Source: an uncultured Geobacteraceae bacterium
GTDB lineage: Bacteria > Desulfobacterota > Desulfuromonadia > Geobacterales > Pseudopelobacteraceae
DNA: 35,546 bases
Assembly: GCA_903930585.1 (NCBI GenBank)
Contig: CAIYZD010000083.1
Span: 1 to 35,546, forward strand
Reading direction: 5' to 3'
This document shows positions 5,226 to 27,902 of the stretch, piece by piece. Below the pieces are notes generated by a model. That model worked only from the letters and a program-made list of their open reading frames with translations. It had not been told where the DNA came from and searched no databases. Numbering within the stretch: position 1 is the first letter of the stretch; each line of letters starts with the position of its first letter. Made by a program: the position numbers and the translations under genes.

Positions 5226-5254
5226 TTGACTATTTTGCGTCAAGATGCTACTTT
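5226..5254 (+). promoter_or_regulatory. Possible sigma-70 type promoter for the DUF2142-like gene
   Basis: TTGACT at 5226-5231 (5 of 6 to the -35 consensus) is followed after 17 bases by TACTTT at 5249-5254, a weak -10. It would place the transcript start near 5261, upstream of the GTG at 5287 but downstream of the ATG at 5245, so it favours the later start. The evidence is sequence resemblance only. Confidence 0.3.
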
Positions 5255-5286
5255 TGCACTTATTATTTATTTCAAAGGCAAGCATA

Positions 5287-8502: not shown

Positions 8503-8531
8503 CATTTACAACCTGGCGGCAGGAACCTGAC

Positions 8532-10463: not shown

Positions 10464-10487
10464 CGGCGCGCAACCGGCGGCGAGGAA

Positions 10488-10859
10488 TCATGCTTTTGTA
10501 TCCGTCTCCCGGCGCTTTTTGTCCGTATCCTCCAGTGCCTTCTTCAACAGCGCAATTTCCTGGGTAAGCTTGTGATTACTCTCGGAGAGACGGGAGATAG
10601 AGGTGCCATAGCCGATATTGACCAGCAGCAGAAAGAGCAGACCAAGCAAAAAGAGCAGAGATGGCGGATAATAAATACCGACTGCAATGGCAACGGTTTC
10701 CAGCACATGCCGGGAAACCGACAAACCGATAATGACAATACTGGTGCAGAGCCAGAGCAATGAATATTTTTCCCGGAGCCGTCCCTCTCGAATGAGCCAG
10801 ATGACAAGGATAAATATGGAACTGCTTAAAAGGATGGATACAACTCTGGTGATATCCAC
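10488..10859 (-). CDS. DUF2304 family small membrane protein
   Basis: A 123-residue protein with three hydrophobic helices (about 5-22, 34-52 and 66-85) and a charged, helical C-terminal tail (about 90-120) rich in Glu, Lys and Asp. The order of helices, the K-Y-S-L-L-W-L motif after the first helix and the S-x-L-x-x-x-x-x-x-L-x-Q-E-I-A-L-L motif in the tail match the DUF2304 family. In many bacteria members sit directly beside a GT2 polyprenyl-phosphate glycosyltransferase, as here: the GT2 stop is 3 bases before this gene's GTG start, with a purine-rich ribosome site (GGAAAGAAG) inside the end of the GT2 gene. The two are almost certainly co-transcribed. The molecular role is unknown; a membrane partner of the GT2 is an inference from the pairing. 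Confidence 0.85.
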   Translation of the reverse strand: MDITRVVSILLSSSIFILVIWLIREGRLREKYSLLWLCTSIVIIGLSVSRHVLETVAIAVGIYYPPSLLFLLGLLFLLLVNIGYGTSISRLSESNHKLTQEIALLKKALEDTDKKRRETDTKA

Positions 10860-10862
10860 GGC

Positions 10863-11564
10863 CTAAACTTCTTTCCAGGTAATTTTCTTGCGCATGGCTT
10901 CAACGCACATCGCAAGGGAAACCTTAAGCATGTAGTAAGCCGACTTTCGCCGGTTGATGGATGAGTGCCCCGATTGCCTCTGGCGCATGACAACCGGGAC
11001 TTCGACAATGGTCAGACCGTTGCGGGAGGCAGTGACGATTGACTCCACTTCCGGGTAATCATCCGGATATGACAGTGAAAACAGTTTGATTGCGGCAGGA
11101 CCGTAACAGCGAAAACCGGCAGTCGGATCGGCAACCCGCTCACCGGTCAGAAAACGGATTAAAAAACAGAACAACACGCTCCCCATCTTCCGGAATATGC
11201 CGCACTTGTACCCTTCCGGGAGGGTTCTGACCCCAATCACCAGATCAGCCGCCCCGCGCTCAACCTGCGCAACGATCTTTTCAATCTGGTCGGCTCTGTG
11301 TTGGCCATCTCCGTCAAACTGAATGGCGTAGTGGTATCCGTTGCGCAAGGCGTAAAGCAGACCAGTCTGGACCGTGCCACCGATTCCAAGATTACAGGGG
11401 TGGCTGACGCAGGCAACGCCGAGTTGCCTGGCAATTTCTTCGGTAGCGTCTTTCGAACCGTCGTTGACCACAAGGACATCACCGGCAAACTGCCGCAGAT
11501 CGTCCAGAACGAAGGGAAGATTCGCCTCTTCGTTGTATGCCGGTACAATAACAAGTGCTTTCAC
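10863..11564 (-). CDS. GT2 family, polyprenyl-phosphate sugar synthase-like (DPM1 type)
   Basis: A 233-residue GT-A glycosyltransferase. The motifs are I-V-P-A-Y-N-E-E at about 5-12, V-V-N-D-G-S-K-D-A-T at 32-41, the D-G-D-G-Q-H metal site at about 84-89, and D-P-T-A-G-F-R-C-Y near 145-153. These are the features of dolichol/undecaprenyl-phosphate sugar synthases, which move a sugar from a nucleotide donor to polyprenyl phosphate on the cytoplasmic face. It lacks the C-terminal transmembrane pair of ArnC/GtrB; the following DUF2304 membrane protein may supply the membrane partner. The start is a GTG. The product could feed one of the GT-C membrane enzymes in the window, which is inference. 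The gene is divergent from the GT2 at 11675. Confidence 0.88.
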   Translation of the reverse strand: MKALVIVPAYNEEANLPFVLDDLRQFAGDVLVVNDGSKDATEEIARQLGVACVSHPCNLGIGGTVQTGLLYALRNGYHYAIQFDGDGQHRADQIEKIVAQVERGAADLVIGVRTLPEGYKCGIFRKMGSVLFCFLIRFLTGERVADPTAGFRCYGPAAIKLFSLSYPDDYPEVESIVTASRNGLTIVEVPVVMRQRQSGHSSINRRKSAYYMLKVSLAMCVEAMRKKITWKEV

Positions 11565-11674
11565 ACAATATCCACGCTATAACGTATTTAATTGATGGAA
11601 TTTAGATGATTTCAGCGTATTTAGCAACACCTATACCATGACGTATGAAATTTGGATGCAACGGTGAGTTTATA

Positions 11675-12697
11675 GTGCGCACCTCAATAATTATCACAAA
11701 CTGGAACGGCAGGCGCCATTTGCCGGATTGCCTCGAAAGTATTGAACAGCAGACCGATACGGATTTCGAGGTCATTCTGGTGGATAACGGTTCAACCGAC
11801 GGGTCCATCGAGTATATCCGCACGCGGCATCCCTGGGTAAAACTGGTCTGCCTGCCAGAAAACAGGGGCTTTGCCGCCGGCAACAACATCGGCCTTGAGC
11901 ATGCTTCCGGCACCTTCATTGTCACTCTCAATAACGATACCTGTGCCGAGCCTGACTGGCTGGCGGAACTGATCTCAGCAGCGGAAGCCCACCCCAGGGC
12001 AGGAATGGTTTCCAGCCGTATCTGCACCTCCGATGATCGCGACCGGATCGACTCAATTGGTCTCAAAGTCTGCCGGGACGGAATGTCACGGGGTGCGTAC
12101 CGGTTGCAAAGCTTTGCAGCGCTCTCTCTTGAACGCGTCACCCCAATATTGGCCACCTCCGCCTGCGTAGGTCTCTACCGCAGATCCATGCTGGATGAAA
12201 CCGGTTTTTTCGACGAAGATTTTTTTGCCTACTGCGAAGACACCGATCTCGGATTGCGCGGACGTCTGGCCGGTTGGGATGCGGTGCTGGCCCGAGACGC
12301 CGTCGTCCGGCACAAGTACTCGCAGACCGCCGGAACCTTTTCCCCATTCAAACTCTATCTGGTGGAGAGAAACCACTACTGGGTGGCGCTCAAAACATTT
12401 CCCCGCACATGGCTTCTGCTCCTACCGTTCTTTACCGTTGCCCGTTTCCTGATCCAGGCAGCTGTCGTCCTCGGTGGCAAAGGGGCAGGAGGAGAACTTC
12501 TCGCCAGCGGTTCGCGCAGGCAGTGCATCTACGCACTCGCACGAGGCATCCGTGACGCAGCAGCAGCTATCCCTGGGATGCTGCACAAACGGTCCGCCAT
12601 CATGCGTACGCGCAAATTGTCAAACAGAGAATTTACCGCCCTGCTGAAAAAATACCGTCTGAGCTTCAGCGAATTACTGGACACCGGAGCCCGGTAA
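11675..12697 (+). CDS. Glycosyltransferase family 2 (WbbL/rhamnosyltransferase-like)
   Basis: A GT-A inverting glycosyltransferase of 340 residues from the GTG at 11675. An in-frame ATG at 11645 would add 10 residues, but no ribosome site precedes it, whereas GGTGAG lies 6 bases before the GTG. The protein then opens directly with the fold's first strand, S-I-I-I-T-N-W-N-G. V-D-N-G-S-T-D-G-S and F-A-A-G-N-N-I-G are nucleotide-binding motifs, L-N-N-D-T is the metal site, and Y-C-E-D-T-D-L-G-L-R is the catalytic-base region. This set is typical of the rhamnosyltransferase-like WbbL group, although the sugar cannot be decided. A hydrophobic stretch near residue 245-260 may anchor it to the membrane. 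It is the first gene of the central + strand block. Confidence 0.88.
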   Translation: MRTSIIITNWNGRRHLPDCLESIEQQTDTDFEVILVDNGSTDGSIEYIRTRHPWVKLVCLPENRGFAAGNNIGLEHASGTFIVTLNNDTCAEPDWLAELISAAEAHPRAGMVSSRICTSDDRDRIDSIGLKVCRDGMSRGAYRLQSFAALSLERVTPILATSACVGLYRRSMLDETGFFDEDFFAYCEDTDLGLRGRLAGWDAVLARDAVVRHKYSQTAGTFSPFKLYLVERNHYWVALKTFPRTWLLLLPFFTVARFLIQAAVVLGGKGAGGELLASGSRRQCIYALARGIRDAAAAIPGMLHKRSAIMRTRKLSNREFTALLKKYRLSFSELLDTGAR

Positions 12698-12733
12698 CGC
12701 TTCAGAAAGGGCCGTATCTCCATGAGAAAAGCA

Positions 12734-12762
12734 TTGTTTCCCTGAGGCAACTGTCATATTAT
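12734..12762 (+). promoter_or_regulatory. Probable sigma-70 promoter upstream of wzm
   Basis: TTGTTT at 12734-12739 and TATTAT at 12757-12762 (5 of 6 to the -10 consensus) are separated by exactly 17 bases, in the 110-base gap before the permease gene. The expected start of transcription is about 12769, roughly 40 bases upstream of the ATG at 12808. Confidence 0.45.
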
Positions 12763-12807
12763 CAAAAATTGATTCACCAGACTGGTACGTATCGAGGTTT
12801 TTGATTC

Positions 12808-13617
12808 ATGCAAAGCATCAGGATGTTTATCAACTTCATCACGGAACTTTGCGCTCGCCGGAACGTCATCATAGAGCTGACCAAACGGGACTTCAAATCC
12901 GGGTATCTCGGCTCCTACCTGGGCATTCTTTGGGCCTTTCTGTTTCCGCTGGCACTAACCGGTATTTTCTGGTTTGTTTTCCAGGTCGGCTTTAACTCCA
13001 AGCCGGTAGCACAGCATCCGTATATCCTCTGGCTGGTCTGCGGCATGTTTCCCTGGTTTTTCTTCAGTGACTGCATTATCAACGGCACCAACTCCATTTT
13101 ACAAAACTCTTTCATTGTGAAAAAGGTCGCCTTCAGCATCGGCATTCTCCCCATCGTTAAGATCCTTTCAGCCTTCATTATCCACTGTTTCTTCATCGGT
13201 CTCATTTTCTCCATGTTTCTAATCTACGGATTCAGTTTTGACATCTATGTATTGCAGATTGCCTATTATCTTTTCTGCTCCATCGTTCTGCTTGTCGGCA
13301 TTACCTGGCTCAGCTCGTCCGTGGTGATCTTCTTTCGCGATCTTAATCCTCTAATTACCATCATTCTCCAGATGGGGTTCTACCTCACTCCGATCTTCTG
13401 GGACCTCAAAATACTTCCACCCGCCTACCATTTCCTTTTGAAGTTCAATCCTGCCTTCTACATCATTCAAGGATATCGGGAAAGCTTCATTTACAAAATG
13501 TGGTTCTGGGAGCACTGGGGGATGACCCTCTGGTTCTGGGGTATAACCGGTTTTACTCTGGTAGCCGGTGCAGTGGTATTTCGCAGGCTTCGGCCGCATT
13601 TCGCAGATGTTCTCTAA
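12808..13617 (+). CDS. wzm: ABC-2 type polysaccharide export permease
   Basis: A 269-residue membrane protein forming the channel subunit of a polysaccharide ABC exporter in the inner membrane. The N terminus has an amphipathic stretch followed by K-R-D-F-K-S-G-Y-L-G-S-Y-L-G-I-L-W-A-F-L, the interface/first-helix motif of Wzm/TagG-type permeases. About six hydrophobic helices follow. F-R-D-L-N-P-L-I-T-I-I-L-Q and Y-L-T-P-I-F-W, followed by F-N-P-A, are the characteristic C-terminal helix motifs. The length is typical for the family (about 260-275). A GAGG lies 10 bases upstream of the ATG. Its partner ATPase is not adjacent: an acyltransferase gene sits between them. It would export an undecaprenol-linked glycan made in the cytoplasm. 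Confidence 0.92.
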   Translation: MQSIRMFINFITELCARRNVIIELTKRDFKSGYLGSYLGILWAFLFPLALTGIFWFVFQVGFNSKPVAQHPYILWLVCGMFPWFFFSDCIINGTNSILQNSFIVKKVAFSIGILPIVKILSAFIIHCFFIGLIFSMFLIYGFSFDIYVLQIAYYLFCSIVLLVGITWLSSSVVIFFRDLNPLITIILQMGFYLTPIFWDLKILPPAYHFLLKFNPAFYIIQGYRESFIYKMWFWEHWGMTLWFWGITGFTLVAGAVVFRRLRPHFADVL

Positions 13618-13720
13618 AGCTGGGCACTGTCCGGCCAGAGAAAAATCGACGTTCCTGAGCATTCTAAACCGCAGATGGTGGTGCCAATGTATTTGACAAC
13701 TTTCCAGCAGGAGGATGCTT

Positions 13721-14806
13721 GTGACCCAAGCTGAACCTCGCGTGTTTGGACTCGACGTGTTGCGGGCCATGGCAATTATTCTGGTGCTCATATCCCATGG
13801 CAGACATTTCCTTGTCAATGACGTTCCGCTTGTAACTGTTTGTCGTATCGGTGGATTTTACGGCGTCGAACTTTTTTTTGTGTTGAGCGGCTTTCTGATT
13901 GGATCGATTCTGCTCAAACTTAACAAACGTCTGGAATCGCTCAATGGATTGCTCTATTTCTGGAAGCGGCGGTGGTATCGCACTCTCCCAAACTACTATC
14001 TGTTCCTGTTTGTAAGCAGCATAGTGTCCTTGCTGCTGTCAACAACACTGCCGAATTTTTTGGTGTTCCTGCCGTTTCTCCAAAATTTCGCGTGGGAGCA
14101 TCCAACGTTCTTCGCCGAGTCCTGGAGCTTGGCGGTAGAAGAGTGGTTTTATCTACTGTTCCCCATCGGATTATACTTTTCAGGTAAAACTAGTCTCGAT
14201 ATTCGACGCTCTTTTCTCTTGCTGAGTCTTGTATTCTTAATCGGACCGACGCTCCTGCGTTACATCCATGTACATGTTGAAAATCCGACCTGGGATCAGG
14301 GTGTACGCAAGATCATGGTCTTGAGGCTGGACGCCATCATGTTTGGTATGCTTGCAGCGTGGGTCAAACGTGAATGGCCCACAATATGGCCAAATATTGC
14401 CAAGCCCCTGCTCATCCCGGGGCTGATTCTGATCGGTTGGGCCTCCTGGCTTTTTTTGGGTAGTTCTCTTGATCAAAGTATTTTCTGTCGAGTATGGCTT
14501 TTCACCATTGTTTCTTTTGGTTTTGTCTGTTTTATCCCGTATTGCGATCTGTGGACGGTGAGCAGAGAATCTTTTGCAACAGCGGTATTCAGAAATTTGG
14601 CTCTTTGGTCGTACTCACTCTATCTATCCAATAGTACTATTTTTTATATGATTAACAGATATGTAACGCAGGGACGTCTTGAAATGAGATACATGTCCTA
14701 TACGTTGTTCTTCATCATTTCATTAGCTCTCTCCGCGCTCTGTTATCGCTATTTTGAAAAGCCGGTGATGGATCGACGTGATCGATTATCCGAGATTCAC
14801 TCTTGA
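13721..14806 (+). CDS. Acyltransferase 3 family membrane protein (OafA/YrhL-like)
   Basis: A 361-residue membrane acyltransferase, expected to add an acetyl or similar group to sugars of the exported glycan. The start is chosen at the GTG at 13721: GGAGG at 13710-13714 lies 6 bases before it, while the ATG at 13715 directly touches that ribosome site and is not usable. The N terminus has the family signature G-L-D-V-L-R-A-M-A-I with Arg15 and His26, then G-V-E-L-F-F-V-L-S-G-F-L-I at 48-60. S-W-S-L-A-V-E-E-W-F-Y-L near residue 133 is the second conserved motif. About ten hydrophobic helices are present, ending in F-E-K-P. It separates wzm from wzt and looks AT-richer than its neighbours by eye, so it may be a later insertion that decorates the glycan. 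Confidence 0.9.
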   Translation: MTQAEPRVFGLDVLRAMAIILVLISHGRHFLVNDVPLVTVCRIGGFYGVELFFVLSGFLIGSILLKLNKRLESLNGLLYFWKRRWYRTLPNYYLFLFVSSIVSLLLSTTLPNFLVFLPFLQNFAWEHPTFFAESWSLAVEEWFYLLFPIGLYFSGKTSLDIRRSFLLLSLVFLIGPTLLRYIHVHVENPTWDQGVRKIMVLRLDAIMFGMLAAWVKREWPTIWPNIAKPLLIPGLILIGWASWLFLGSSLDQSIFCRVWLFTIVSFGFVCFIPYCDLWTVSRESFATAVFRNLALWSYSLYLSNSTIFYMINRYVTQGRLEMRYMSYTLFFIISLALSALCYRYFEKPVMDRRDRLSEIHS

Positions 14807-14831
14807 TAAAAGCCCTGCCTGGGGAGAGAAC

Positions 14832-14840
14832 TGATATAAT
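14832..14840 (+). promoter_or_regulatory. Extended -10 element upstream of wzt
   Basis: TGATATAAT is a perfect TGn plus TATAAT extended -10 box, which can work without a good -35 element. It lies just after the acyltransferase stop (14804-14806) and would start transcription near 14847, about 47 bases before the ATG at 14894. TTGATA at 14803-14808 is too far away (26 bases) to be a -35. Confidence 0.45.
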
Positions 14841-14893
14841 TTACAAACGGGTTACGACGAAGTCTCATAATTTACTTGAATGGACAGGCGGAT

Positions 14894-16162
14894 ATGGCAG
14901 AAGATGTCGCAATTAGCATTCAAAACTTAACCAAGATCTACAAACTCTACGACTCCCCCACAGATCGGCTGAAGGAGGCGCTTAGCCCGTTTCGCAAGAA
15001 ATACCACCGAGATTTCTTTGCTCTGAACGATATCAGTTTTGAGGTAACAAGGGGGGAAACTGTCGGCATAATCGGTCGGAATGGTGCCGGAAAATCGACA
15101 CTTCTGAAGATAATCACCGGAGTTATTGCTTCAAGCAGCGGAAATGTCCGTGTTAATGGCAAAATTTCAGCCCTGCTGGAACTGGGCGCAGGTTTCAATC
15201 CCGATATCAGTGGTCTGGAAAATGTTTTTTTTAACTGCACCCTTATGGGCTTCAGCAAGGAAGAAATCGACGCAAAGCTTGACGAAATCATAGAATTTGC
15301 CGACATAGGTGAATTCATCCACCAGCCGGTTAAGACCTATTCAAGCGGTATGGTTTCCCGGCTTGCTTTCGCCGTTGCCATCAGTGTCGATCCGGAAATC
15401 CTCATCGTTGACGAGGCCCTCGCAGTTGGCGATGTTGCCTTCCAGTACAAATGCTACCAGCGGATGTGGCAAATGAAGGCTAACGGCGCGACTCTCATCC
15501 TTGTGACTCATTCAACCCAACATATTCTCGAACAGTGCGACAAGGCCGTTCTGCTGTGCAGCGGAAGGCTCGTCTGCCAGGATAGCAACGTAGAAGAGGT
15601 GGTCACGCGGTATGAAAAGCTTATACGTAACGTTGATGATGCAAGTGGTATCAACATTGATATGGCTGGCCGGGAGTTGATCGAAGAAGACTTCTCCAGA
15701 GTAGCCAACAGGGAGATCGGTGAGCAGCGATTCGGCTCAGGGCGGGCCATTCTCAAAAATATCACTGTCACGAACAGACTAGAATCCGAGGAAAACAGTC
15801 CCGTCCTCCGTAGTGGAAGAAAGATGTATATAAAATTTCTCATATACTCCCGTGAAGAGATCGAAAATATTGCCCTTGGAGTTTCTCTGAGACGGAGGGA
15901 TAGCTCCGACATCTGGGGAGATAACAATATTTACGCCGATCACCCATTGATGTTGAAAAAGGGCATAAACCGTATTTGTTACGAGACAACCCTCAATATA
16001 GTATCAGGTGAATATCTTTTGTTATGCGGGCTTGCCGCCTTCAGAGGCAACGAACGTGAGGAGCTTGATCAGAGGTGGCCGGTGAGAATAGTAAAGGTTG
16101 CCAGTGACAGGGAATCTGTTGGTTTTATCTACAGCCCTATCAAAGTACTATCTTGCAATTAA
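14894..16162 (+). CDS. wzt: Polysaccharide ABC exporter ATPase with C-terminal substrate-recognition-type domain
   Basis: The 422-residue cytoplasmic ATPase subunit. From the ATG at 14894: Walker A G-R-N-G-A-G-K-S-T at 61-69, signature Y-S-S-G-M-V-S-R-L at 149-157, Walker B I-L-I-V-D-E at 169-174, and switch histidine T-H at 205-206. The D-S-P near residue 21 and H-R-D-F-F-A-L-N-D region near 38-46 are typical of Wzt/TagH proteins. About 140 residues after position 280 form a separate beta-rich region, as in Wzt proteins whose carbohydrate-binding module recognises the capped non-reducing end of the O-polysaccharide (E. coli O9a, Klebsiella O12). A TTG at 14876 is in frame, but AGGCGG just before the ATG favours the ATG. 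The next gene follows after 9 bases. Confidence 0.93.
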   Translation: MAEDVAISIQNLTKIYKLYDSPTDRLKEALSPFRKKYHRDFFALNDISFEVTRGETVGIIGRNGAGKSTLLKIITGVIASSSGNVRVNGKISALLELGAGFNPDISGLENVFFNCTLMGFSKEEIDAKLDEIIEFADIGEFIHQPVKTYSSGMVSRLAFAVAISVDPEILIVDEALAVGDVAFQYKCYQRMWQMKANGATLILVTHSTQHILEQCDKAVLLCSGRLVCQDSNVEEVVTRYEKLIRNVDDASGINIDMAGRELIEEDFSRVANREIGEQRFGSGRAILKNITVTNRLESEENSPVLRSGRKMYIKFLIYSREEIENIALGVSLRRRDSSDIWGDNNIYADHPLMLKKGINRICYETTLNIVSGEYLLLCGLAAFRGNEREELDQRWPVRIVKVASDRESVGFIYSPIKVLSCN

Positions 16163-16171
16163 GGAACTATA

Positions 16172-19100
16172 ATGCTTATCTCTTTTCTTTATCCCTTTCG
16201 AATTCGAGAAGTCAAGGCACCTTTCCTGTGGGTATTCTACAAGCAACTTGCCCACTTCAAACCAAACGAAATAACATATATTGCCAATGACGATTATTTT
16301 GTCGATCCAACAGAATTCCGCGACCGCTGGGAGATAACACCTGCGTCACAAGCTCATCTTGGATACTGCCTTCCTACGGCAACAGATCTTTCTGCCATCA
16401 ACAAACGCATCATTAATAATTCAGTATTTGACGCACTTAGTAAAAAATTCCCCTCATCAAACGGCGCATGGAAATCACTTATTACTGAGCGGTATGAGCC
16501 ACTTGAACAGGTTCTTGATGTGCTATTCTCCGAAATTACAGCCAAACACTCAGTTGAGGCAGTTCTTGCCTGGTGCAACTGCAGAAGCCTCTCGGAGGTA
16601 TCCAGGAAGTACGGTTTCAAGATAATCCACAATGAATTGGGACCAACGAGAAGACCTCATTACATCCAAACCGCCTATTTTGACTTCTCCGGTGTCAATG
16701 GCAACACCGATGCGCATACACGTTACCTTAAGTTCAGCAGTGAGGTTGCGTCACATCCCGTAGATACGTTGCCAAAGAAGGGACTTCTCTACCTGTTGAC
16801 CAATGAGAAGTACCTCCCTTGCATCCCAACTGACGTATCCGCCCGGAGCTACGATATCGGCCTCGCCCTCCAGATCGAGGACGACTCAAACGTGCTTGCC
16901 TACTCCAATGGCCACGACAATTTTGACCTGATCAATTGCGCCCGCAAGGTGTTCGGGCGGGAGGACATCTTAATCCGCAGGCATCCCAGTGGTCATCTGG
17001 AGTACAAAGAAACCTTGGGAGTGATCGACGATTCTCCTCAGCTGTTTGATTTTTTACATAAGTGTCGTCGAATAGCGACTATCAACTCCAGTGTCGGTTT
17101 CGAGTCTATCCTGTTTGACAAGATTACCTATATTCTCGGAGATAGCCCCTTTGCCTTTATGGCCTATAATCGCCTTGACACTGGACAGGAAGTGTCTGCT
17201 ATTGCCGATGACCATCTGGCTATCAACTTTATTGTCTTTGGATACCTCATTCCCTACGACCTTCTTTTTACTCCCGAGTACTATCGTTGGCGTCTGGGGG
17301 ATAGAACCGAAAGAGAAATTTACGAATACCACTTTAACTATTATCTCTCCAAAGAGTTGACGAGCCCTGATCTTTTTTCGAGCTTAAGCGGCAAAGATTT
17401 ATTTGTCATCACTGTTGAAAACAAGGTTCGTAATCTCGGCAAGGAAGTAGAAAATCTCGCTTTGCAACTTTCAGAATGCCAGGCGCTGAATGAAACCAGT
17501 TCTCACAATATACTGGAATTGGAAGAAATTGTCGCTGCACTGCCCCAACATCAACTTGAGCAGTCTCGTTTTCAGGAAGAAGCCGATAAGCTGGCAATAC
17601 AATTTGAGGAGCAGGGCCGGGAATTATCTCTTGTCACCAATCGGCTTCAGCAAAAGGAAAATGACCTGGTGGACCGGGACGAGAAGATCAGACACCTCGA
17701 AGAGAAACTTGCCCTTCAGCAGCACAACACCCAGCCGGCCTTGAACGATCTGCTATCTTTGTATAACCTTTTGCAGCAACACACAAACACATTAGGGCGT
17801 TATTCCGCGTACACCCAAAAACTTCAGGAAATAATTGCGCAGGAAAAATATTCTCTACTATCGCCGTTAATGAGGCTTTTCTTCAATATATTCCACAACA
17901 CTATTGAGCATTTTCCGCAACAGGTGAAGAACAAACTTGCCGCTTTTGACCAGAAAATGTGGAAAAAGCACCATCAGCCAGTGGAGATTAGTCCACCGCC
18001 CCTGGATTCAAGCACCGATACCATCAAGATAAATACGAATCTTGCGAAAATGTTAGGTAGTAGAAATGAAGGGTTCGATGTCGTTGTTTTCCCTGTCATT
18101 GATTGGCATTTCCGCTTCCAGAGGCCACAGCATCTTGCAAAACACCCGGCGGCAGTCGGGCACCGAGTGTTCTATCTCACCACCGAATTCACACACGACT
18201 TCCAGAGTCTCGGCTTTAAGATAGCTGAGACACCCGAGAAAAATGTCTTTATAATCCAACTGGTCTGCCCGCTCCCCCACCCGAATATTTACCGCGACCT
18301 TCTTGCCGATACCCAGCGAGAAGCACTCCTCTCGTCTCTCAAACAACTGCGTGAGCGTTTTGAGATCAAGCAACTGGTATCTCTCGTGGACCTCCCCTTC
18401 TGGCGACCGGTTCTTGAGGCGTTACCCGACAACATTATTGTCTACGACTGCATGGACTACCACGCCGGTTTTTCTACCAACACAGATGAGATGCTGCGCG
18501 AGGAAAACCTGTTGCTGCATTGCGCAAACCTTGTCGTTACAACGTCACAGAGACTATCCGAACTTGTTGCGCAGGAGGTACCCAACGTCCTGATACGTAA
18601 TGGCGCGGAAGTTTCCTTTTTCGCCAACAGGCCAAAGGTATTGTCATACATATCAGATCGTCCCGTCGTCGGCTACATCGGCGCCATTTCCAACTGGTAC
18701 GACATCGACCTCGTAATTACTGCTGCGACAGCATACCCGGAATGGGACTTCGTCCTGATTGGCTCAACGTGGGGATGCGATCTAAAAACAGCAGAGTTGC
18801 TCCCGAATATCAAGTTTCTCGGAGAAAAACCCTATGCCGACCTACCGGGGTATCTGCATGCCTTCGACGTCTGCATTATCCCGTTCCTCCTGACCGAACT
18901 CACCCTCTGCACCAACCCGGTAAAGGTCTATGAATATCTGAGTGCAGGCAAACCGGTGGTGGCGACGGCCATGCCGGAGTTGCAACTGATTCGGGAGTAC
19001 GTACATATTGCAGAAACCACAGAAGATTTTGTTGAGAAGCTAAAGATTGCAATCGGCGAAAGCACTGACCAGGAATTGGCCGGACTGCGCTCGAAATGGG

Positions 19101-19189
19101 CACAACAACATGACTGGCAATCCCGTGCAGAAAATCTTCACAAAAATATCATGATGCTACTGGACAGTAACGATAGCAAATACGATTAA
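16172..19189 (+). CDS. Multidomain glycosyltransferase: GT99-like (beta-Kdo) domain, coiled coil, GT-B domain
   Basis: A 1005-residue cytoplasmic protein in three parts. Residues 1-400 begin Y-P-F-R-I-R-E-V-K-A-P-F and contain H-N-E-L-G-P (Glu155), L-Q-I-E-D-D-S-N (Asp237/238), R-R-H-P-S-G (His271) and T-I-N-S-S-V-G-F-E-S. This resembles the N-terminal GT99 domain of WbbB, a retaining beta-Kdo transferase that caps O-antigen. Residues about 415-525 form a heptad-like, Glu/Gln/Leu-rich coiled coil. Residues 635-1005 are a GT-B (GT4-like) domain with D-W-H-F-R-F-Q-R-P-Q, R-N-G-A-E, G-Y-I-G-A-I and Y-E-Y-L-S-A-G-K-P. AAGGA lies 6 bases before the ATG. It directly follows wzt, which fits a role in chain termination. 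The GT99 call is from remembered motifs and needs structural confirmation. Confidence 0.75.
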   Translation: MLISFLYPFRIREVKAPFLWVFYKQLAHFKPNEITYIANDDYFVDPTEFRDRWEITPASQAHLGYCLPTATDLSAINKRIINNSVFDALSKKFPSSNGAWKSLITERYEPLEQVLDVLFSEITAKHSVEAVLAWCNCRSLSEVSRKYGFKIIHNELGPTRRPHYIQTAYFDFSGVNGNTDAHTRYLKFSSEVASHPVDTLPKKGLLYLLTNEKYLPCIPTDVSARSYDIGLALQIEDDSNVLAYSNGHDNFDLINCARKVFGREDILIRRHPSGHLEYKETLGVIDDSPQLFDFLHKCRRIATINSSVGFESILFDKITYILGDSPFAFMAYNRLDTGQEVSAIADDHLAINFIVFGYLIPYDLLFTPEYYRWRLGDRTEREIYEYHFNYYLSKELTSPDLFSSLSGKDLFVITVENKVRNLGKEVENLALQLSECQALNETSSHNILELEEIVAALPQHQLEQSRFQEEADKLAIQFEEQGRELSLVTNRLQQKENDLVDRDEKIRHLEEKLALQQHNTQPALNDLLSLYNLLQQHTNTLGRYSAYTQKLQEIIAQEKYSLLSPLMRLFFNIFHNTIEHFPQQVKNKLAAFDQKMWKKHHQPVEISPPPLDSSTDTIKINTNLAKMLGSRNEGFDVVVFPVIDWHFRFQRPQHLAKHPAAVGHRVFYLTTEFTHDFQSLGFKIAETPEKNVFIIQLVCPLPHPNIYRDLLADTQREALLSSLKQLRERFEIKQLVSLVDLPFWRPVLEALPDNIIVYDCMDYHAGFSTNTDEMLREENLLLHCANLVVTTSQRLSELVAQEVPNVLIRNGAEVSFFANRPKVLSYISDRPVVGYIGAISNWYDIDLVITAATAYPEWDFVLIGSTWGCDLKTAELLPNIKFLGEKPYADLPGYLHAFDVCIIPFLLTELTLCTNPVKVYEYLSAGKPVVATAMPELQLIREYVHIAETTEDFVEKLKIAIGESTDQELAGLRSKWAQQHDWQSRAENLHKNIMMLLDSNDSKYD

Positions 19190-19210
19190 ATCCCGTTCTG
19201 GAGTCGGTAA

Positions 19211-21520
19211 ATGCACAAAGTTGCGATTATAACACTTTCGTTCAATTGTCTTGAAGACACGACTAAACCATGCCTTGAAAGCATTTTTTCCTGCAAAAAT
19301 GAGACTCCGTTCATCGTCGTCGTTGTGGACAATCTCTCGACTGATGGTACTCGCGAATACCTGATTGAAGAAGAGAAGAAACATGACAATCTTCGCGTAA
19401 TACTAAATGATCGGAATACCGGTTATGCCGCAGGCAACAACATCGGCATCGGGGCAGCGGAAGCGGAATATTATATACTGCTGAACAATGATACTATTGT
19501 AACCGATTACTGGATCGACTATTTTGTGCGATTTTTCTCCGAGCATCCCGAAACCGGGATGCTCGGACCTGTGACCAACTCAGTCGGAAACGAGCAACTT
19601 ATACACATTGAATCAACGAAAGAAGCTGAGATCATTCACAAGGGTCTGGAATGGGCGGCAACATGTAAAACTGATTACTTTTACACGAAAATGCTCGGTT
19701 TCTTTTGTGTTGCAATAAAAAAAGAAGTAATTGATACGGTCGGATTGTTGGAAGAAGCCTTCGGTATCGGCATGTTCGAGGATGATGACTATTGTTTGAG
19801 GGTGCGGGAAAAAGGGTATAACCTTGCGTGTCTTGAAGATATTTTTATTTTTCATAAAGGCAATTTCACTTTCAAGAATACAATTGCCGATTACAATGAC
19901 CTATTCTACATCAACCTTCGAAAGTTTGAGGAAAAGCACCATACAAAATGGCGTACCGGATGCAGTACCCCGCCATTCCTCGATTTATTTGATTCATATA
20001 TGGCAAATAGCTCTGGAAAGGTAGATAAGGCCCTTTACAAGATCAAGAACAAGTTGCAAGTAATGAGACGTTTTGATTATCCAAGGTTCAATCTTGAATA
20101 TCTTGTCTCCCACCAACAGGAGCAGATCAGTAAACTGGAAGAAAAGACAGCGCGTGCCGACAAAAGCTTCCATGAATCGACAGCGGAGGATATTTACGTT
20201 AACCTGCAGATAGCGGAAAATGAACTCAAAAGCATCCACTCTTCCTTAACGTGGCGGCTGGCGAAGCGCCTGCATCGCATTATCGACAAGCTCCCCATCA
20301 CCCGTCCAGCCTATAATTTCTTACATTCTCGTCTCCATTCTAAAGCTGGCTTTGTTTCCACGACAACACCTTCTAACCCGGCCGAGATTGCCATTACCGA
20401 ATCAGCAGTCGTCAATACCCCACTGGAGTATTTGCGACAAAATCCCCAGATACCGATTGTCGTTTTCCCACCGCTATTTGACTGGGATGTTCCTCTCTTT
20501 CAGAGGCCACAGCAGATCGCGATGAGCCTTGCTAAAAATGGCTTATATTATTTTTACTGCACACCTAATGCAAAATACGATAGCGTTGAGGGGTTTACTC
20601 CTATTTCAAGCAAAGGGTTTCTTACCAACAAGTTCGAAGAAATCATCACGCTTCCAAACCGGAAAGTTATTCACCTGATTTCAACCGACAACAGCAAGAG
20701 TCGCAGTTACGTCGAAGAGGAGTTACGAAAAGGCAACCTGATCCTCTATGAATACATTGACGAAATACATGAGAAGATATCAGGAATTGCCATTCCGCAA
20801 AGCACGATTGAAATGCATGAGTACATATTACGGAGTGAACAATGCACCGTCATCGCAACGGCGGATAAACTCTACAAGGATGTGCTGGAATATCGAAGCG
20901 GGAATTGTGCCCTGGTCACCAACGGTGTTGATTACGACCATTTTTCCCGACAATTTACGGGAGAAGACATTCCAAATGAGATAAAACATATCGTTGCCAG
21001 AAAAAAGCCGATAATCGGCTATTTCGGGGCATTTGCCTCCTGGTTCGACTTTGATGCAGTTGCTTCTTTGGCAAAAACACAACCCGATTACGAGATTCTT
21101 CTGATAGGATGGAACTATCAGGATTTATTTGATGTGTCGGAAATACAAAAACTGCCCAATGTCACCGTGATCGGACCTATTCCCTATAAAGAGTTGCCGA
21201 GATATGCCTTCTGGTTTGATGTGTCCACCATTCCATTCATCATAAACGAGATTACCGAATCAACATCACCTATCAAGCTGTTTGAGTACATGGCACTTGG
21301 GAAACCTATTGTAACCACTGACTTACCAGAATGCCGACGCTATAAATCGGTACTTATTGCGAAAGACCATTCTGATTTTATTGTTAAAATCAGAATGGCC
21401 ATTGATCTTAAGTTTGATTTGTCTTATAAGATGTTGCTCGAAAGAGAAGCGTCCGAAAATACTTGGGATAGCAAAGCAAAAATTATTTATAATTTAATCC
21501 ACTCCAACCTGGCACGCTAA
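19211..21520 (+). CDS. Bifunctional glycosyltransferase: GT2 domain, helical linker, GT-B domain
   Basis: A 769-residue protein. Residues 1-255 are a GT2 domain: I-I-T-L-S-F-N, V-V-D-N-L-S-T-D-G-T, Y-A-A-G-N-N-I-G, L-L-N-N-D-T and M-F-E-D-D-D-Y-C-L-R. Residues about 300-390 form a charged helical linker with S-S-L-T-W-R-L near 338. Residues 414-769 are a GT-B domain clearly paralogous to the C terminus of the preceding protein, with shared F-Q-R-P-Q, T-N-G-V-D, G-Y-F-G-A-F-A-S-W, I-P-F-I and F-E-Y-M-A-L-G-K-P. Such two-enzyme proteins often add alternating residues of a repeat unit. GGAG lies 7 bases before the ATG, 21 bases after the upstream stop. Two perfect hairpins lie inside the gene (19539-19566 and 21367-21398). 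Substrates are unknown. Confidence 0.88.
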   Translation: MHKVAIITLSFNCLEDTTKPCLESIFSCKNETPFIVVVVDNLSTDGTREYLIEEEKKHDNLRVILNDRNTGYAAGNNIGIGAAEAEYYILLNNDTIVTDYWIDYFVRFFSEHPETGMLGPVTNSVGNEQLIHIESTKEAEIIHKGLEWAATCKTDYFYTKMLGFFCVAIKKEVIDTVGLLEEAFGIGMFEDDDYCLRVREKGYNLACLEDIFIFHKGNFTFKNTIADYNDLFYINLRKFEEKHHTKWRTGCSTPPFLDLFDSYMANSSGKVDKALYKIKNKLQVMRRFDYPRFNLEYLVSHQQEQISKLEEKTARADKSFHESTAEDIYVNLQIAENELKSIHSSLTWRLAKRLHRIIDKLPITRPAYNFLHSRLHSKAGFVSTTTPSNPAEIAITESAVVNTPLEYLRQNPQIPIVVFPPLFDWDVPLFQRPQQIAMSLAKNGLYYFYCTPNAKYDSVEGFTPISSKGFLTNKFEEIITLPNRKVIHLISTDNSKSRSYVEEELRKGNLILYEYIDEIHEKISGIAIPQSTIEMHEYILRSEQCTVIATADKLYKDVLEYRSGNCALVTNGVDYDHFSRQFTGEDIPNEIKHIVARKKPIIGYFGAFASWFDFDAVASLAKTQPDYEILLIGWNYQDLFDVSEIQKLPNVTVIGPIPYKELPRYAFWFDVSTIPFIINEITESTSPIKLFEYMALGKPIVTTDLPECRRYKSVLIAKDHSDFIVKIRMAIDLKFDLSYKMLLEREASENTWDSKAKIIYNLIHSNLAR
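19539..19566. repeat. Perfect 12-bp inverted repeat inside a coding region
   Basis: CCGAGCATCCCG at 19539-19550 is followed by the loop AAAC and its exact reverse complement at 19555-19566. It codes for part of the GT2 domain (E-H-P-E-T-G-M-L-G). The stem is GC-rich and would be very stable in the mRNA. No T-run follows, so it is not a typical terminator. Confidence 0.85.
21367..21398. repeat. Perfect 14-bp inverted repeat inside a coding region
   Basis: A 14-base arm at 21367-21380 and its exact reverse complement at 21385-21398 enclose the loop TTGT. It lies in the last part of the GT2/GT-B gene, coding for D-H-S-D-F-I-V-K-I-R-M. It is about 120 bases before the stop codon and has no T-run after it. 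Its role, if any, is unknown. Confidence 0.85.
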
Positions 21521-21553: not shown

Positions 21554-22681
21554 ATGAACAACATAAAAATACTATCCGTAATAGGAACCCGCCCGGAAGC
21601 AATCAAGATGGCTCCGGTTATTCTTGAGCTAAAAAAGTTGAGCAACGCCGATGTTCGAACTATTGCTACAGCCCAGCACCGGGAGATGCTCGACCAGGTC
21701 GTAAATCTGTTCGGAATCATTCCCGAGTACGACCTGAATCTTATGCAGCCTGGGCAGGATCTGACGGATATTACCGCCAGCGTTTTACTTGGCATGCGTG
21801 GAGTGTTACGGGAATGGCGACCGGATTGGGTGTTGGTTCATGGCGATACGACGACCACCTTTGCCGCTGCCCTAGCCGCCTACTATGAAAAAATTCCGGT
21901 CGGTCATATTGAAGCGGGACTGCGGACCGGTAACATTTATTCCCCTTGGCCGGAAGAGATGAACCGCCGCCTCGCCGGAGCAATTACCACCCTCCACTTT
22001 GCGCCCACAGGGAGGGCACAAGAAAACCTTCTCCGGGAGGGGGTTGCTTCCGAACGGATACATGTCACTGGCAACACGGTCATCGACGCCCTCTATGATG
22101 TCGTTGCGCGGATCAAAGCCAGTGCCACGCTTACGGCCTCTTTGGCAAAACAGTTTGATTACCTCGATCAAAACAGGAAATTGATCCTTGTCACCGGCCA
22201 CCGGCGCGAGAACTTTGGGGAAGGCTTCGAGAGAATCTGCCACGCGTTGAAAACCCTGAGCGAACTTGATGACGTCCAGATCCTGTACCCTGTACACCTG
22301 AACCCCCATGTGCAGGAACCGGTACGGCGGATTCTGGGCGGCTTGTCGAACATCCATCTGATCGAGCCGCTGGACTATCTCCCTTTCGTTTACCTGATGG
22401 ACTGTTCATATCTGATTATTACCGATTCTGGCGGCGTACAGGAAGAAGCGCCAGCCTTAGGGAAGCCGGTGCTGGTCATGCGGGATACAACCGAACGCCC
22501 CGAGGCGGTCGATGCCGGAACGGTTAAACTGGTAGGAACTGACGTAACACGCATTGTGAGTGAAGCAAACATCCTCTTGAACAATTCTGCCGAATATGAC
22601 AGTATGTCCCGGATTCATAATCCCTATGGTGACGGTCTGGCAGCGAAACGGATTGTCAAGGTTCTGCTGTCTTCTTGTTGA
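21554..22681 (+). CDS. wecB: UDP-N-acetylglucosamine 2-epimerase (non-hydrolysing)
   Basis: A 375-residue cytoplasmic enzyme that interconverts UDP-GlcNAc and UDP-ManNAc, giving a ManNAc-type precursor for surface glycans. Family landmarks in order: [11 protein letters not shown] at about 11-21, A-Q-H-R-E-M, H-G-D-T-T-T-T near 96-102, [22 protein letters not shown] near 216-223, and D-S-G-G-V-Q-E-E-A near 294-302, followed by R-D-T-T-E-R-P-E-A. The length matches the family. The ATG at 21554 has no strong ribosome site. No UDP-ManNAc dehydrogenase (wecC) is visible here, so whether ManNAc or ManNAcA is used cannot be decided. It follows the large glycosyltransferases by 33 bases in the same direction. 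Confidence 0.95.
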
Positions 22682-22769: not shown

Positions 22770-23213
22770 ATGAAGTTAGGGAAAGTTGTTCAGTTAATCG
22801 TATGCGTTGTCGCAGCCGGAGTTATGGTTAGCGGTTGCAAAAATAAGGAAGAAGCACCGCCGGCACCGGCTCAACAGGCTCAGCCCGCCCCTTCTGCCCA
22901 ACCGGCACCTGCAGCACAGAGCGGAGCTTTGTTCATCGTAAAGTTCGGCCCGGAATCTACCACTGCAGGACAAGTCTTTAACGCACAGCCGAGCGGTGAG
23001 AGCGCCCTTTGGGTAACCGCAGAAAATATTCCGACCAAAACTGTCATTGTCTTCAACAACACCAACCTTAAAAGCTTCGTCGGCAAAGATGGAAAGCTCA
23101 TCACCGCCATTGTGCCGAAAAATATGTATGAAAAACCAGGCAGTTACCCTCTATTTCTGCTCGATACAGAGACAAATGCTAAATCTAATGAAGTGGTTTT
23201 TTCTGTAAAATAA
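22770..23213 (+). CDS. Small lipoprotein with a Pro/Ala-rich linker
   Basis: A 147-residue predicted lipoprotein. The signal ends in a lipobox V-S-G-C with the lipidated cysteine at residue 23, followed by K-N-K-E-E. Next is a linker of alternating Ala, Pro and Gln from about 28 to 50. A globular, beta-rich domain of about 95 residues follows, ending in P-G-S-Y-P-L-F-L-L-D-T and N-E-V-V-F-S-V-K, a pattern like small Ig-like (IPT/TIG) domains. AGGAGG lies 8 bases before the ATG, an excellent ribosome site, and a strong intrinsic terminator follows. The position at the end of the exporter block suggests a cell-envelope role, but no specific function is recognised. The residue after Cys is Lys, so outer-membrane sorting is likely though not certain. 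Confidence 0.85.
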   Translation: MKLGKVVQLIVCVVAAGVMVSGCKNKEEAPPAPAQQAQPAPSAQPAPAAQSGALFIVKFGPESTTAGQVFNAQPSGESALWVTAENIPTKTVIVFNNTNLKSFVGKDGKLITAIVPKNMYEKPGSYPLFLLDTETNAKSNEVVFSVK

Positions 23214-23277: not shown

Positions 23278-23342
23278 GCGTAGATTAGTGTTTGCACTAC
23301 TTGGCACCGGCTGTTCACATTTCACAAATATCAAGGTACGAC

Positions 23343-25451
23343 GTGGCACTGCTAACACACCTGATACGCACTCCCGTGACGGTACTGCGGGCAATTAACC
23401 TCAACACGCTTCAGCTTGCCTGGAATTACCTGAAAGTGGGGAATTTCGAGGAACTGGCCAGGGGGGTCTGCTATTTTTTAGGCCGCACCTCTCCTGTCAC
23501 GAAGTTCCGCCCAATTATTCTACACGGCTCCATCGCATCTGACACCCCCATACTGTTTCCTATCCACACCATACCCCTTGTCTCGATAATTATTCCGGTC
23601 CACAATCAATGGAATTTCACCCATTCCTGTCTTGCCTCAATTGTCCGGCACAGCGGCAACATCCCCTATGAGGTGATCATTGCGGATGACGTTTCAAGCG
23701 ACCGGACAGCCTGTATTGATACACTCGATTTCAATATCAAGGTAGTAACAAACAAATCGAATCTCGGTTTCCTCCGCAATTGCAACAACGCTGCCACAAT
23801 CGCTCAGGGGAAATACCTCCTTTTTCTCAACAACGATACCAACGTCCAACCCGGCTGGCTTACCCCGCTTGTAACAGTCATGGAAGCCGATCCGACCGTA
23901 GGTATCACCGGGGCAAAATTAGTCTATCCGGACGGAATGCTCCAGGAAGCGGGCGGGATCATCTGGAATGACGCTTCGGGATGGAACTTCGGATGGCAGG
24001 ATGACCCGGAGAAGCCGGAATATAATTATGTGAAGGATGTCGATTACGTTTCCGGCGCAGCTCTGATGGTACGCCGTGAGTTATGGGAGAAGGCGTCTGG
24101 ATTTGATGCGCAGTTCGCACCGGCCTACTACGAGGACACCGACCTGGCTTTCCGCGCCAGAGCGCTCGGCTGGCGAGTGGTCTATCAGCCCCGGTCGGTA
24201 GTGGTTCACTTTGAAGGAGTTTCCCACGGCAAAGACATTACCAGGGGAATCAAAAACTATCAGGAGAGGAACCGGGCACTGTTCCTGGAACGCTGGAGCG
24301 ACGTGCTCAGGCGGGACCATTTCCCCAACGCTCATACTGTGTTCCGGGCACGTGACCGGAGCCGTTTCAAGAAGTCAATTCTCGTTATCGACCATTATGT
24401 TCCCATGCACGACCGGGACGCCGGCTCCTTTTTCATGTTCAGTCTGCTCCGCGCTCTGGTAACACTCGGCTATCGTATAACCTTCTGGCCGGAAAACCTC
24501 TACCGACACGAGCCATACTGCACCGAGCTTCAGCAATTGGGGGTTGAGGTTATGTATGGTCAACGCAGCTTTGATAAATTTCTCATAGAAAACGGCGCCA
24601 ATTTTGATGCCGCCTTCCTCACCCGCAACCACATTGCCATACATTTTATTGATGCAGTTCGCCGTCATATTCGAAAGGTGATCTATCATGACCCTGATCT
24701 GGAGTTCCTACGGGAAGAACGGAGGATAGCACTGGAGGGGGGAACACTGGAGAGCCTGGCAACAATAAAGGAACGGGAGCTGTACCTGTTCCGGAACTGT
24801 GATGTTATCGGCATTCACAGCCCGGTAGAAAGGGAGATCATCCGTACGGAGTTGCCGGGAGCACACGTTGAAGTAATCCCCCTGCCTGTTCACGACATCG
24901 TTGCCACGACAACACCTTATGCGCAAAGAGAGGGACTCCTCTTCATCGGCGGGACCCATCCCCCCAACTCGGATGCCCTTTCATGGTTCATTCGGGACGT
25001 TTTTCCCCTCGTGCGCCGGACGCTGCCAGCGGTCATACTGACGGTAGCCGGCGAGGTGACCAGGGACAAGATCAAAGGGCTTGATCTCACTAATATTGTT
25101 TTCAGCGGCTATATTCCGGATCTCCTCCCCTGTTATGAAAAAGCGCGGATATTCATCGCTCCGCTCCGCTACGGCGCAGGAATCAAAGGAAAAATCCTTG
25201 AAGCCATGAGCTACGGTCTGCCGATAGTAACGACCGCTGTCGGTGCCGAGGGAATCGGGCTTGGTGATGGTGAAGATGCGCTGATCGCTACCGACCGGGA
25301 TGCGTTTGCCCAAGCCGTGACAGACCTGTATGGCGACGAACAGCTGTGGGAGAAGCTTCGCCGCAACGCATATGCCATTGTTAATGCGAACTTTTCCCAA
25401 GAGATATTCAGACGAAGGGTGGGGAAAGTCATGGAGGAGCTGTTGACTTGA
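23343..25451 (+). CDS. Bifunctional GT2-GT4 glycosyltransferase
   Basis: About 702 residues from the GTG at 23343, which has AAGG 6 bases upstream; a TTG at 23292 is in frame but lies too near the terminator and lacks a ribosome site. A short N-terminal region is followed by a GT2 domain (about 78-320) with S-I-I-I-P-V-H-N-Q, I-A-D-D-V-S-S-D, F-L-N-N-D-T and Y-E-D-T-D-L-A-F-R. A GT4 domain (about 340-700) begins I-L-V-I-D-H-Y-V-P and contains H-D-P-D-L, F-I-G-G-T-H-P-P-N and A-P-L-R-Y-G-A-G-I-K-G-K-I-L-E-A-M-S-Y-G. This GT2-GT4 fusion is common in surface-glycan and protein-glycosylation loci. It overlaps the next gene by 4 bases (TTGA). The sugars are unknown. Confidence 0.9.
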   Translation: MALLTHLIRTPVTVLRAINLNTLQLAWNYLKVGNFEELARGVCYFLGRTSPVTKFRPIILHGSIASDTPILFPIHTIPLVSIIIPVHNQWNFTHSCLASIVRHSGNIPYEVIIADDVSSDRTACIDTLDFNIKVVTNKSNLGFLRNCNNAATIAQGKYLLFLNNDTNVQPGWLTPLVTVMEADPTVGITGAKLVYPDGMLQEAGGIIWNDASGWNFGWQDDPEKPEYNYVKDVDYVSGAALMVRRELWEKASGFDAQFAPAYYEDTDLAFRARALGWRVVYQPRSVVVHFEGVSHGKDITRGIKNYQERNRALFLERWSDVLRRDHFPNAHTVFRARDRSRFKKSILVIDHYVPMHDRDAGSFFMFSLLRALVTLGYRITFWPENLYRHEPYCTELQQLGVEVMYGQRSFDKFLIENGANFDAAFLTRNHIAIHFIDAVRRHIRKVIYHDPDLEFLREERRIALEGGTLESLATIKERELYLFRNCDVIGIHSPVEREIIRTELPGAHVEVIPLPVHDIVATTTPYAQREGLLFIGGTHPPNSDALSWFIRDVFPLVRRTLPAVILTVAGEVTRDKIKGLDLTNIVFSGYIPDLLPCYEKARIFIAPLRYGAGIKGKILEAMSYGLPIVTTAVGAEGIGLGDGEDALIATDRDAFAQAVTDLYGDEQLWEKLRRNAYAIVNANFSQEIFRRRVGKVMEELLT

Positions 25452-27816: not shown

Positions 27817-27902
27817 AAAAATGGAGTTTTGGAGACGAGGATAAACGTGCGCCCACAGAATGTACACCCATATGCGGCCTTTCTCGGAGGGCTGGTATTT
27901 GT

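Follow-up and report, generated by a model that had tools for sequence, protein, structure and literature searches.

Organization of the locus

The window, the whole stretch of 35,546 nucleotides analyzed here, lies in contig C83 (CAIYZD010000083.1) of an uncultured Geobacteraceae bacterium, whose genome is a 5.9-Mb draft of 854 contigs, 93% complete with 5.3% contamination. On its forward strand it carries, in order, genes for a family 2 glycosyltransferase (GT2), the ATP-binding cassette (ABC) exporter subunit Wzm, a membrane acyltransferase, Wzt, a 1005-residue fusion protein, a GT2-GT4 protein and WecB. The fusion consists of an N-terminal GT99 domain, a family of retaining transferases for β-linked 3-deoxy-D-manno-oct-2-ulosonic acid (Kdo), a helical spacer and a C-terminal GT4 domain. 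It is probable (about 0.72) that this protein joins a β-Kdo terminator and ruler to one half of a GT4+GT2 polymerase and acts with a matching Wzt, the functions of cap, ruler and polymerase being those we infer by comparison with known systems. The features are as follows.

11645-12697, forward strand: GT2
12808..13617, forward strand: Wzm, membrane subunit of a polysaccharide ABC exporter (PF01061, E=4.7e-11; 41% identity to the Wzm of the GT99 locus L002)
13715..14806, forward strand: membrane acyltransferase (Acyl_transf_3; PF01757, E=4.3e-19; a 35% identical homologue adjoins Wzm in L002)
14894..16162, forward strand: Wzt, ATPase subunit with C-terminal carbohydrate-binding domain (PF00005, E=3.7e-24; PF14524, E=5.3e-11)
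15659..16159, forward strand: carbohydrate-binding domain of Wzt, by sequence of O12 (Kdo-reading) type (5hno, E=1.2e-35)
16172..19189, forward strand: fusion protein GT99 - helical spacer - GT4, 1005 amino acids
16172..17359, forward strand: GT99 retaining β-Kdo transferase domain, residues 1-396
17384..17779, forward strand: predicted helical spacer, probable coiled coil, residues 405-536 (AlphaFold, low confidence)
17849..17974, forward strand: candidate membrane-docking helices, residues 560-601 (AlphaFold helices 560-575 and 583-601, low confidence)
18062..19186, forward strand: GT4-type GT-B domain, residues 631-1005 (PF13692, E=3e-12)
19211..21520, forward strand: GT2 (residues 1-260), linker and second GT4 (PF00535, E=1.7e-18; PF13692, E=9e-10)
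21554..22681, forward strand: WecB, UDP-GlcNAc 2-epimerase for UDP-ManNAc supply (PF02350, E=2.4e-123)
23292-25451: GT2-GT4

As the original prediction had stated, the fusion gene begins 9 bases after a Wzt gene that encodes an extra C-terminal domain. The gaps that follow are 21 bases between the fusion and the GT2 gene and 33 bases between that gene and wecB. The Wzt open reading frame (ORF) runs from an ATG at 14894 to 16162, with a TTG in frame at 14876. The G+C fraction (GC) is 0.43-0.48 in 2-kb segments starting at 13001 to 20001 and 0.49-0.55 in most others, with 3-7 kb and 31-33 kb of the window likewise low. The acyltransferase may O-acylate the glycan.

The GT99 domain

Residues 1 to about 400 of the fusion had been likened to the GT99 domain of WbbB, and sequence and structure comparisons bear this out. 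Pfam family PF21912 matches residues 5-179 (E=4.1e-52, 177 bits against a cut-off of 27), while residues 3-392 match the WbbB GT99 chains in the PDB (8cse/5fa0) with E=3.7e-73. The GT99-like motifs named in the original prediction are real and were located at residues 153 (HNELGP), 232 (ALQIEDDSN), 269 (RRHPSG) and 303 (TINSSVGFE). Fusion residues R12, E155, R160, Q234, D238 and H271 align with R12, E158, R163, Q228, D232 and H265 of WbbB, where the WbbB chain numbering is the published number plus 1, as judged from the D232N sequence; in excerpts of the WbbB study the aligned residues are the base (E158), the nucleophile (D232), the acid (H265) and other active-site residues (PMC9587256). E155, R160, Q234, D238 and H271 do not vary among seven aligned GT99 sequences, with several donor-site positions also conserved in the fusion. 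Q234 and D238 form the family's QxxxD motif, and H271 is its HP histidine.

The AlphaFold model, built with nine aligned sequences, has a predicted local distance difference test score (pLDDT) mostly of 70-90 over residues 1-394. WbbB GT99 chains took places 1-14 in a Foldseek search with it, at template modelling (TM) scores of 0.83-0.86 by target length (E from 2e-32 to 1e-29). Against 5fa1 (TM 0.86 by target length, E=2e-32) the model displays the displaced, reduced N-terminal Rossmann fold, and the Glu, Asp and His singled out earlier align with the WbbB catalytic residues. KpsC was the next Foldseek match after WbbB (E=2e-6), and no KpsC chain was among the PDB sequence matches of residues 1-400. 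GT107 (KpsC) and GT140 (KrkA) share retaining β-Kdo transfer with GT99 but are distant from it and have linker or repeat-unit roles, according to excerpts of PMC12887879. Residues 1-396 of the fusion are thus a GT99 domain in every feature examined, for which Kdo transfer is predicted. The genome encodes KdsB (E=2.7e-67, over the cut-off) and CMP-Kdo can therefore be made.

The Wzt tail

When compared with known carbohydrate-binding modules, the Wzt tail gave 5hno at E=1.2e-35, with the next best solved Wzt tails, from Aquifex, at E=2e-7. We take 5hno to be the O12 Wzt domain, an identification separately backed by the tail of the O12-like locus L008, which matches it at E=4e-67. This Citrobacter plasmid record has the order rfbBADC, GT2, ABC permease, ABC ATPase and GT99-headed glycosyltransferase, so that its O12-type Wzt stands directly upstream of the GT99 protein, as in the window.

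The tails were compared across four GT99 loci in which a Wzt was seen and two loci (L017 and L019) in which no GT99 was seen. While the ATPase halves of all six compared Wzt are 48-83% identical, the window tail matches all four from GT99 loci (70% in L064, 52% in L002, 48% in L006 and 43% in L008) but finds no real match in the methyltransferase-headed L019 (E=5.2) and 20% identity in L017 (E=2e-6 when just these two sequences were compared). In PDB searches the tail from L017 matched the Aquifex Wzt tails (1e-9) and not 5hno, and no Wzt tail was found with that of L019. As judged from sequence the window tail is of O12 type, with Kdo binding predicted, and in the small sample compared the reader domain on Wzt appears to follow the terminator.

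The GT4 domain and its probable GT2 partner

The C-terminal GT4-like GT-B domain of the original prediction was recovered by Pfam, with PF13692 (E=3e-12, residues 830-956), PF00534 and PF13524 over the cut-off. The lower-ranked Foldseek matches of the whole model include PimA, PglA, HepE and BshA, in a table without residue ranges.

Residues 626-1005 share 64% identity with the C-terminal end of a GT4-spacer-GT4 protein encoded in G049, a genome of the same taxonomic order (L053; domains read by eye), 49% with a GT4-GT2 protein of Azospirillum (L017), 44% with one from Paenibacillus (L018) and 37% with a methyltransferase-spacer-GT4-GT2 protein of Paraburkholderia (L019). Identity to the GT4 of the next gene (19211..21520) is only 28.5%. 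These loci come from the three best of 156 plasmid records and three of 31 genomes, several of the remaining records being annotated UDP-galactopyranose mutase. For the GT2 encoded by that next gene, identity is 60% with the GT2 after the GT4 of L053 and 36-37% with its counterparts in L017-L019, with other GT2s in the comparison reaching at most 28.4%, save one 59-residue match at 42%. In each of the five loci that carry the closest GT4s, the window among them, a related GT2 therefore comes after the GT4: the two are fused, GT4 first, in L017, L018 and L019 and encoded by neighboring genes in L053 and the window. WecB is encoded in four of the five (the window, L053, L017 and L019), and the annotation of L018 with its 6-kb flanks lists no wecB. 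Outside the window, the GT4+GT2 pair is preceded by a methyltransferase or by another GT4, or has nothing in front of it.

One type of GT2 beside the closest GT4s in five of five loci is what would be expected of a two-enzyme polymerase. The fusion GT4 is probably only half of such a polymerase, with the GT2 of the next gene as its partner, so that chain extension would not be contained in one protein as had been proposed.

The helical spacer

Between the GT99 and GT4 domains the AlphaFold model has helices at 407-454 and 464-536 with pLDDT mostly below 55. Prolines lie at 458 and 522, the helical region being interrupted near Pro458, and no tandem repeat was found at the fusion junction. The modelled spacer is a probable coiled coil. 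Spacer length in natural GT99 proteins varies widely, from about 100 residues in L002 (by eye) and about 130 in the window to about 450 in genome G860 (L064), whose GT99 is 61% identical to that of the window and whose spacer contains a 117-bp unit twice in tandem.

The G860 protein (L064 1286-3913), proline-free over 406-860, is an extreme candidate ruler. In the methyltransferase-headed protein of L019 (6405-9878) a 138-bp unit is repeated 3.1 times in the spacer, which suggests rulers that change length by tandem duplication. The window has no repeat of this type. A SWKITxPLR-like motif at the spacer end was also considered; the strict pattern matches only L053 and L064 of 15 sources and no claim is made for it.

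Comparison with known systems

The closest known protein is WbbB of Raoultella terrigena/Klebsiella O12 (GT99-coiled coil-GT102-GT103), which like the fusion has an N-terminal GT99, a helical spacer and a C-terminal polymerizing module, putative in the fusion. Unlike WbbB, the fusion ends in a GT4 and has its probable GT2 partner in a separate gene. Residues 626-1005 gave no BLAST match to the WbbB of L008 at E≤1e-3, and GT102 and GT103 modules were accordingly not found there; the neighboring GT2 is 23% identical to the GT2-like region of WbbB, and the C-terminal GT-B part of WbbB matches the same Pfam families as the fusion GT4 only below cut-off. That the fusion is a WbbB orthologue was rejected, its C-terminal module being without a match in L008.

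WbdD-type terminators share with the window system a terminator head (methyltransferase or kinase-methyltransferase in WbdD types), a helical spacer, which in them is a coiled-coil ruler, and a cap-reading Wzt, but differ in head chemistry and have no fused polymerase (PMC11231755; PMC3482155). ORF6 of Klebsiella pneumoniae O7 (methyltransferase-kinase, coiled coil, two GT2) likewise holds terminator and part of the polymerase together with the remaining glycosyltransferase in a separate gene (PMC11231755, in excerpt), with a methylphosphate cap and GT2 modules in place of Kdo and GT4. The Paraburkholderia fungorum plasmid L019 has the same GT4 (37%) and GT2 (36%) behind a terminator-type head, together with ABC permease, ABC ATPase and wecB; it differs in its methyltransferase head, in having the GT2 in the same protein and in a Wzt tail without a match to that of the window.

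The original prediction had suggested that the fusion, in an arrangement unfamiliar to its author, could join termination, ruling and chain extension. The order GT99-spacer-GT4 was confirmed and the kind of extension module is new, but the union of the three functions in one protein is already known from WbbB of serotype O12 (PMC11231755, in excerpt), where the flexible distribution of polymerase modules among systems is also stressed. What is novel here is thus the kind of extension module and not the union of terminator, ruler and polymerase.

Proposed mechanism

In the WbbB/WbdD model, as given in excerpts of PMC11231755 and PMC3482155, a polymerase extends the chain at the membrane end, a terminator at the far end caps the chains that reach it and Wzt reads the cap. 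By comparison with this model the locus would encode an ABC-exporter-dependent surface polysaccharide capped at its non-reducing end with β-Kdo. The fusion GT4 and the GT2 of the next gene would jointly extend an undecaprenyl-linked chain, and once its free end was long enough to pass the helical spacer it would be reached by the distal GT99 domain. This domain would add one Kdo from CMP-Kdo by double displacement, with D238 as nucleophile, E155 as base and H271 as acid, and growth would stop. The Wzt tail would then bind the Kdo cap and license export by Wzm-Wzt. With regard to the chain itself, its sugars are likewise those we infer, among which N-acetylmannosamine (ManNAc) is likely because wecB lies in the locus. 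The terminal Kdo, the ruler and the GT4+GT2 polymerase are all putative functions.

A number of observations weigh against this reading. The coiled coil of the original prediction is modelled with low confidence, Pfam coiled-coil families stay below cut-off on the fusion (Rod_CreS E=0.02, ADIP E=0.19) and the best heptad score of a crude scorer, 0.65, lies within the maxima of 100 protein shuffles (median 0.55, 95th percentile 0.725). The pLDDT is under 50 over residues 593-822, which leaves the N-terminal half of the GT4 without a model, and the GT4 has a single, weak PDB sequence match (6kih, E=0.009). Its distant relatives (about 31%) frequently stand alone as ORFs of 380-450 amino acids (by eye), in L054 and L055 a GT4 relative is joined to a UDP-galactopyranose-mutase-like part without a GT2 (by eye) and many lower plasmid matches are annotated glf. 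In the Gram-positive Paenibacillus locus L018 the pair is present, and neither Wzt nor wecB is annotated in the 6 kb on its flanks; taken with the distant relatives, this means that the GT4 domain can occur independently of capped export. The GT99 protein of Rhizobium (L007, 386 amino acids) ends after the domain without a spacer, with no Wzt seen among its neighbors, and GT99 is therefore not always part of a capping and export system. Finally, the polymerase could instead be encoded by other glycosyltransferase genes, of which at least three lie in the vicinity (11645, 23292 and 27127).

Several of these points would fit a reading that keeps the same logic of cap and export, with the GT4 adding an adaptor or side-chain sugar and other glycosyltransferases of the window (11645-12697 and 23292-25451) extending the chain. 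In keeping with this the GT99 proteins of L002 and G860 (L064) have no GT4 at all, so that GT99 systems can do without one, and distant GT4 relatives stand alone or with other partners. The constancy of the GT2 after the GT4 in the five closest loci (fused in three, adjacent in two) argues for a joint function, as does L019, where the pair stands behind a terminator-type methyltransferase beside ABC permease and ATPase genes, and an adaptor or side-chain role is regarded as unlikely though worth keeping in view.

Distribution and proposed modular origin

GT99 is rare among the relatives of the bacterium, being found in one of 58 (the window genome itself) and in three of 395 genomes of the phylum, two of these as weak partial matches (E of 4e-4 and 1e-3). 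One of 397 genomes of the phylum of L002 has it (the L002 genome itself), a genome-contig collection yielded one locus with patterns made from one sequence, which are insensitive, and 20 of 72,556 plasmid records contain it. Four of these 20 were read (H1, H17, H18 and H20), the other 16 being from E. coli (14), Klebsiella (1) and Rhizobium (1). No second GT99-GT4 fusion was present among the GT99 proteins of L002, L006, L007, L008, L009, L015, L020, L057, L058, L059, L060 and L064, a set in which L015 to L060 come from phages or IMG/VR and the proteins of L058-L060 are almost identical, and no description of GT99 fused to GT4 was found in the literature searched, mostly at title and abstract level. 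As a separate observation, L006 of Aeromonas caviae (10001-14954) has a 459-residue GT99 protein, followed by an ORF resembling a transposase (by eye) and, after that, a GT2-GT protein, as though an insertion separated parts that are fused in WbbB.

The two ends of the window system have different nearest relatives. The GT99 (61%) and Wzt tail (70%) are of G860 type, and the GT4 (64%), GT2 (60%) and WecB (74%) of G049 type. PF21912 occurs in two of 277 genomes of the class (the window genome and G860) and the GT4, at E≤1e-50, also in two (the window genome and G049), with only the window genome having both. The G049 contig begins inside the GT4-spacer-GT4 gene. Tentatively, and with slightly less than even confidence, a natural head swap across the spacer is proposed, by which a GT99 terminator and matching Wzt of G860 type were joined to a GT4+GT2+wecB cassette of G049 type. 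A GC step near residue 630, from 0.41 for residues 531-630 to 0.51 for residues 631-1005, with the GT2 gene again at 0.42, lies close to the start of the GT4.

The same step, from 0.41-0.46 to 0.51, could mark a chimera, created during assembly, between two loci of related organisms that share a metagenome bin, as could the 854 contigs and 5.3% contamination of the draft and the presence of head and tail relatives in different species with both only here among the 277. Recombination in the spacer is favored over such an error because a single 1005-codon frame stays open over a junction without a tandem repeat, the operon continues with the GT2 partner 21 bases further on and comparable GT99 and methyltransferase fusions occur in complete plasmid records (L008 and L019). 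A chimera is accordingly regarded as improbable.

Role and donor of the GT99 domain

The GT99 could instead place Kdo inside the repeat unit, the fusion then being a Kdo-containing polymerase like KrkA of E. coli K13, a GT140 module fused to a ribofuranosyltransferase (PMC12887879, in excerpt). Fusions of Kdo transferase modules to polymerizing glycosyltransferases are indeed known for repeat units in excerpts of PMC12887879 and PMC13171606. The arrangement of GT99, spacer and a Wzt with an O12-type reader is that of capping, however, with the Wzt tail changing along with the head among the small number of loci compared, and KrkA has reportedly negligible sequence similarity to the GT99 of WbbB (PMC12887879, in excerpt), making it highly doubtful that the window protein builds Kdo into its repeats. 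Least probable of all is another CMP-activated 2-keto sugar acid as donor, to which the drift seen in GT99-like proteins such as L009 and a second kdsB-model match in the window genome (contig C133, E=5e-4, below cut-off) might point, given that catalytic and several donor-site positions are kept, kdsB is present and no CMP-sugar synthetase family is among the matches listed for 24 window proteins scanned. Capping with β-Kdo remains the preferred role.

Divergent and phage-borne GT99 homologues were also encountered. The GT99-like protein of the Clostridia plasmid L009 (7899-9782) has Asp, Ile and Val where the catalytic Glu, Asp and His stand; its gene adjoins an ORF resembling a CMP-sugar synthetase (by eye) and it is possibly a relative with another donor or none. 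Stand-alone homologues on four IMG/VR contigs (L015 5490-6653; L058, L059 and L060, each 8001-9143) are 380-387 amino acids long, about 32% identical to the window domain and keep the E/D/H motifs. Each is preceded by a 576-578-residue HAD-like-looking protein (by eye), the L015 copy without a Pfam match, and phage-structural-looking ORFs lie nearby in L015, L059 and L060 (by eye), these being phage-borne Kdo-transferase-like enzymes. In Agrobacterium phage Rivra (L020 7923-9380, 485 amino acids) a GT99 domain (PF21912, E=2e-23; annotated glycosyltransferase) adjoins a methyltransferase, while the IMG/VR contig L057 (7947-9509, 520 amino acids) has a GT99 domain with an acyltransferase-like ORF nearby. 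Both proteins have a charged, helical-looking tail, and surface-glycan modification by phage is a possible role for them.

Other features of the window and genome

Two separate window ORFs hold the N-terminal (27786-28499) and C-terminal (28613-29074) parts of a GT4, a split or broken gene. An NCBIfam scan gave no match at E≤0.001 for the ORF at 5245-6807 (520 amino acids), and a Pfam scan none at the same threshold for those at 22770-23213 (147 amino acids) and 29089-30888 (599 amino acids). The RpoB of the window genome (L014 1-4494) is unusually long at about 1490 residues and is 55-59% identical to the 15 best of 66 matching records in the plasmid collection.

Implications for capped polysaccharide systems

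The occurrence of the GT4+GT2 pair behind a GT99, a methyltransferase, another GT4 or nothing, together with a Wzt reader domain that varies with the terminator across the small sample of loci, suggests that the O12 Kdo terminator is a portable module. The rule that terminator and reader travel together while the polymerase is exchangeable becomes testable, and the natural GT99 proteins with their very different spacers form a ready series for the ruler model. If the head swap is true, recombination within the spacer would be a route by which ABC-exported glycans evolve, terminator and reader being replaced together, and a chain could receive a different cap while keeping its polymerase.

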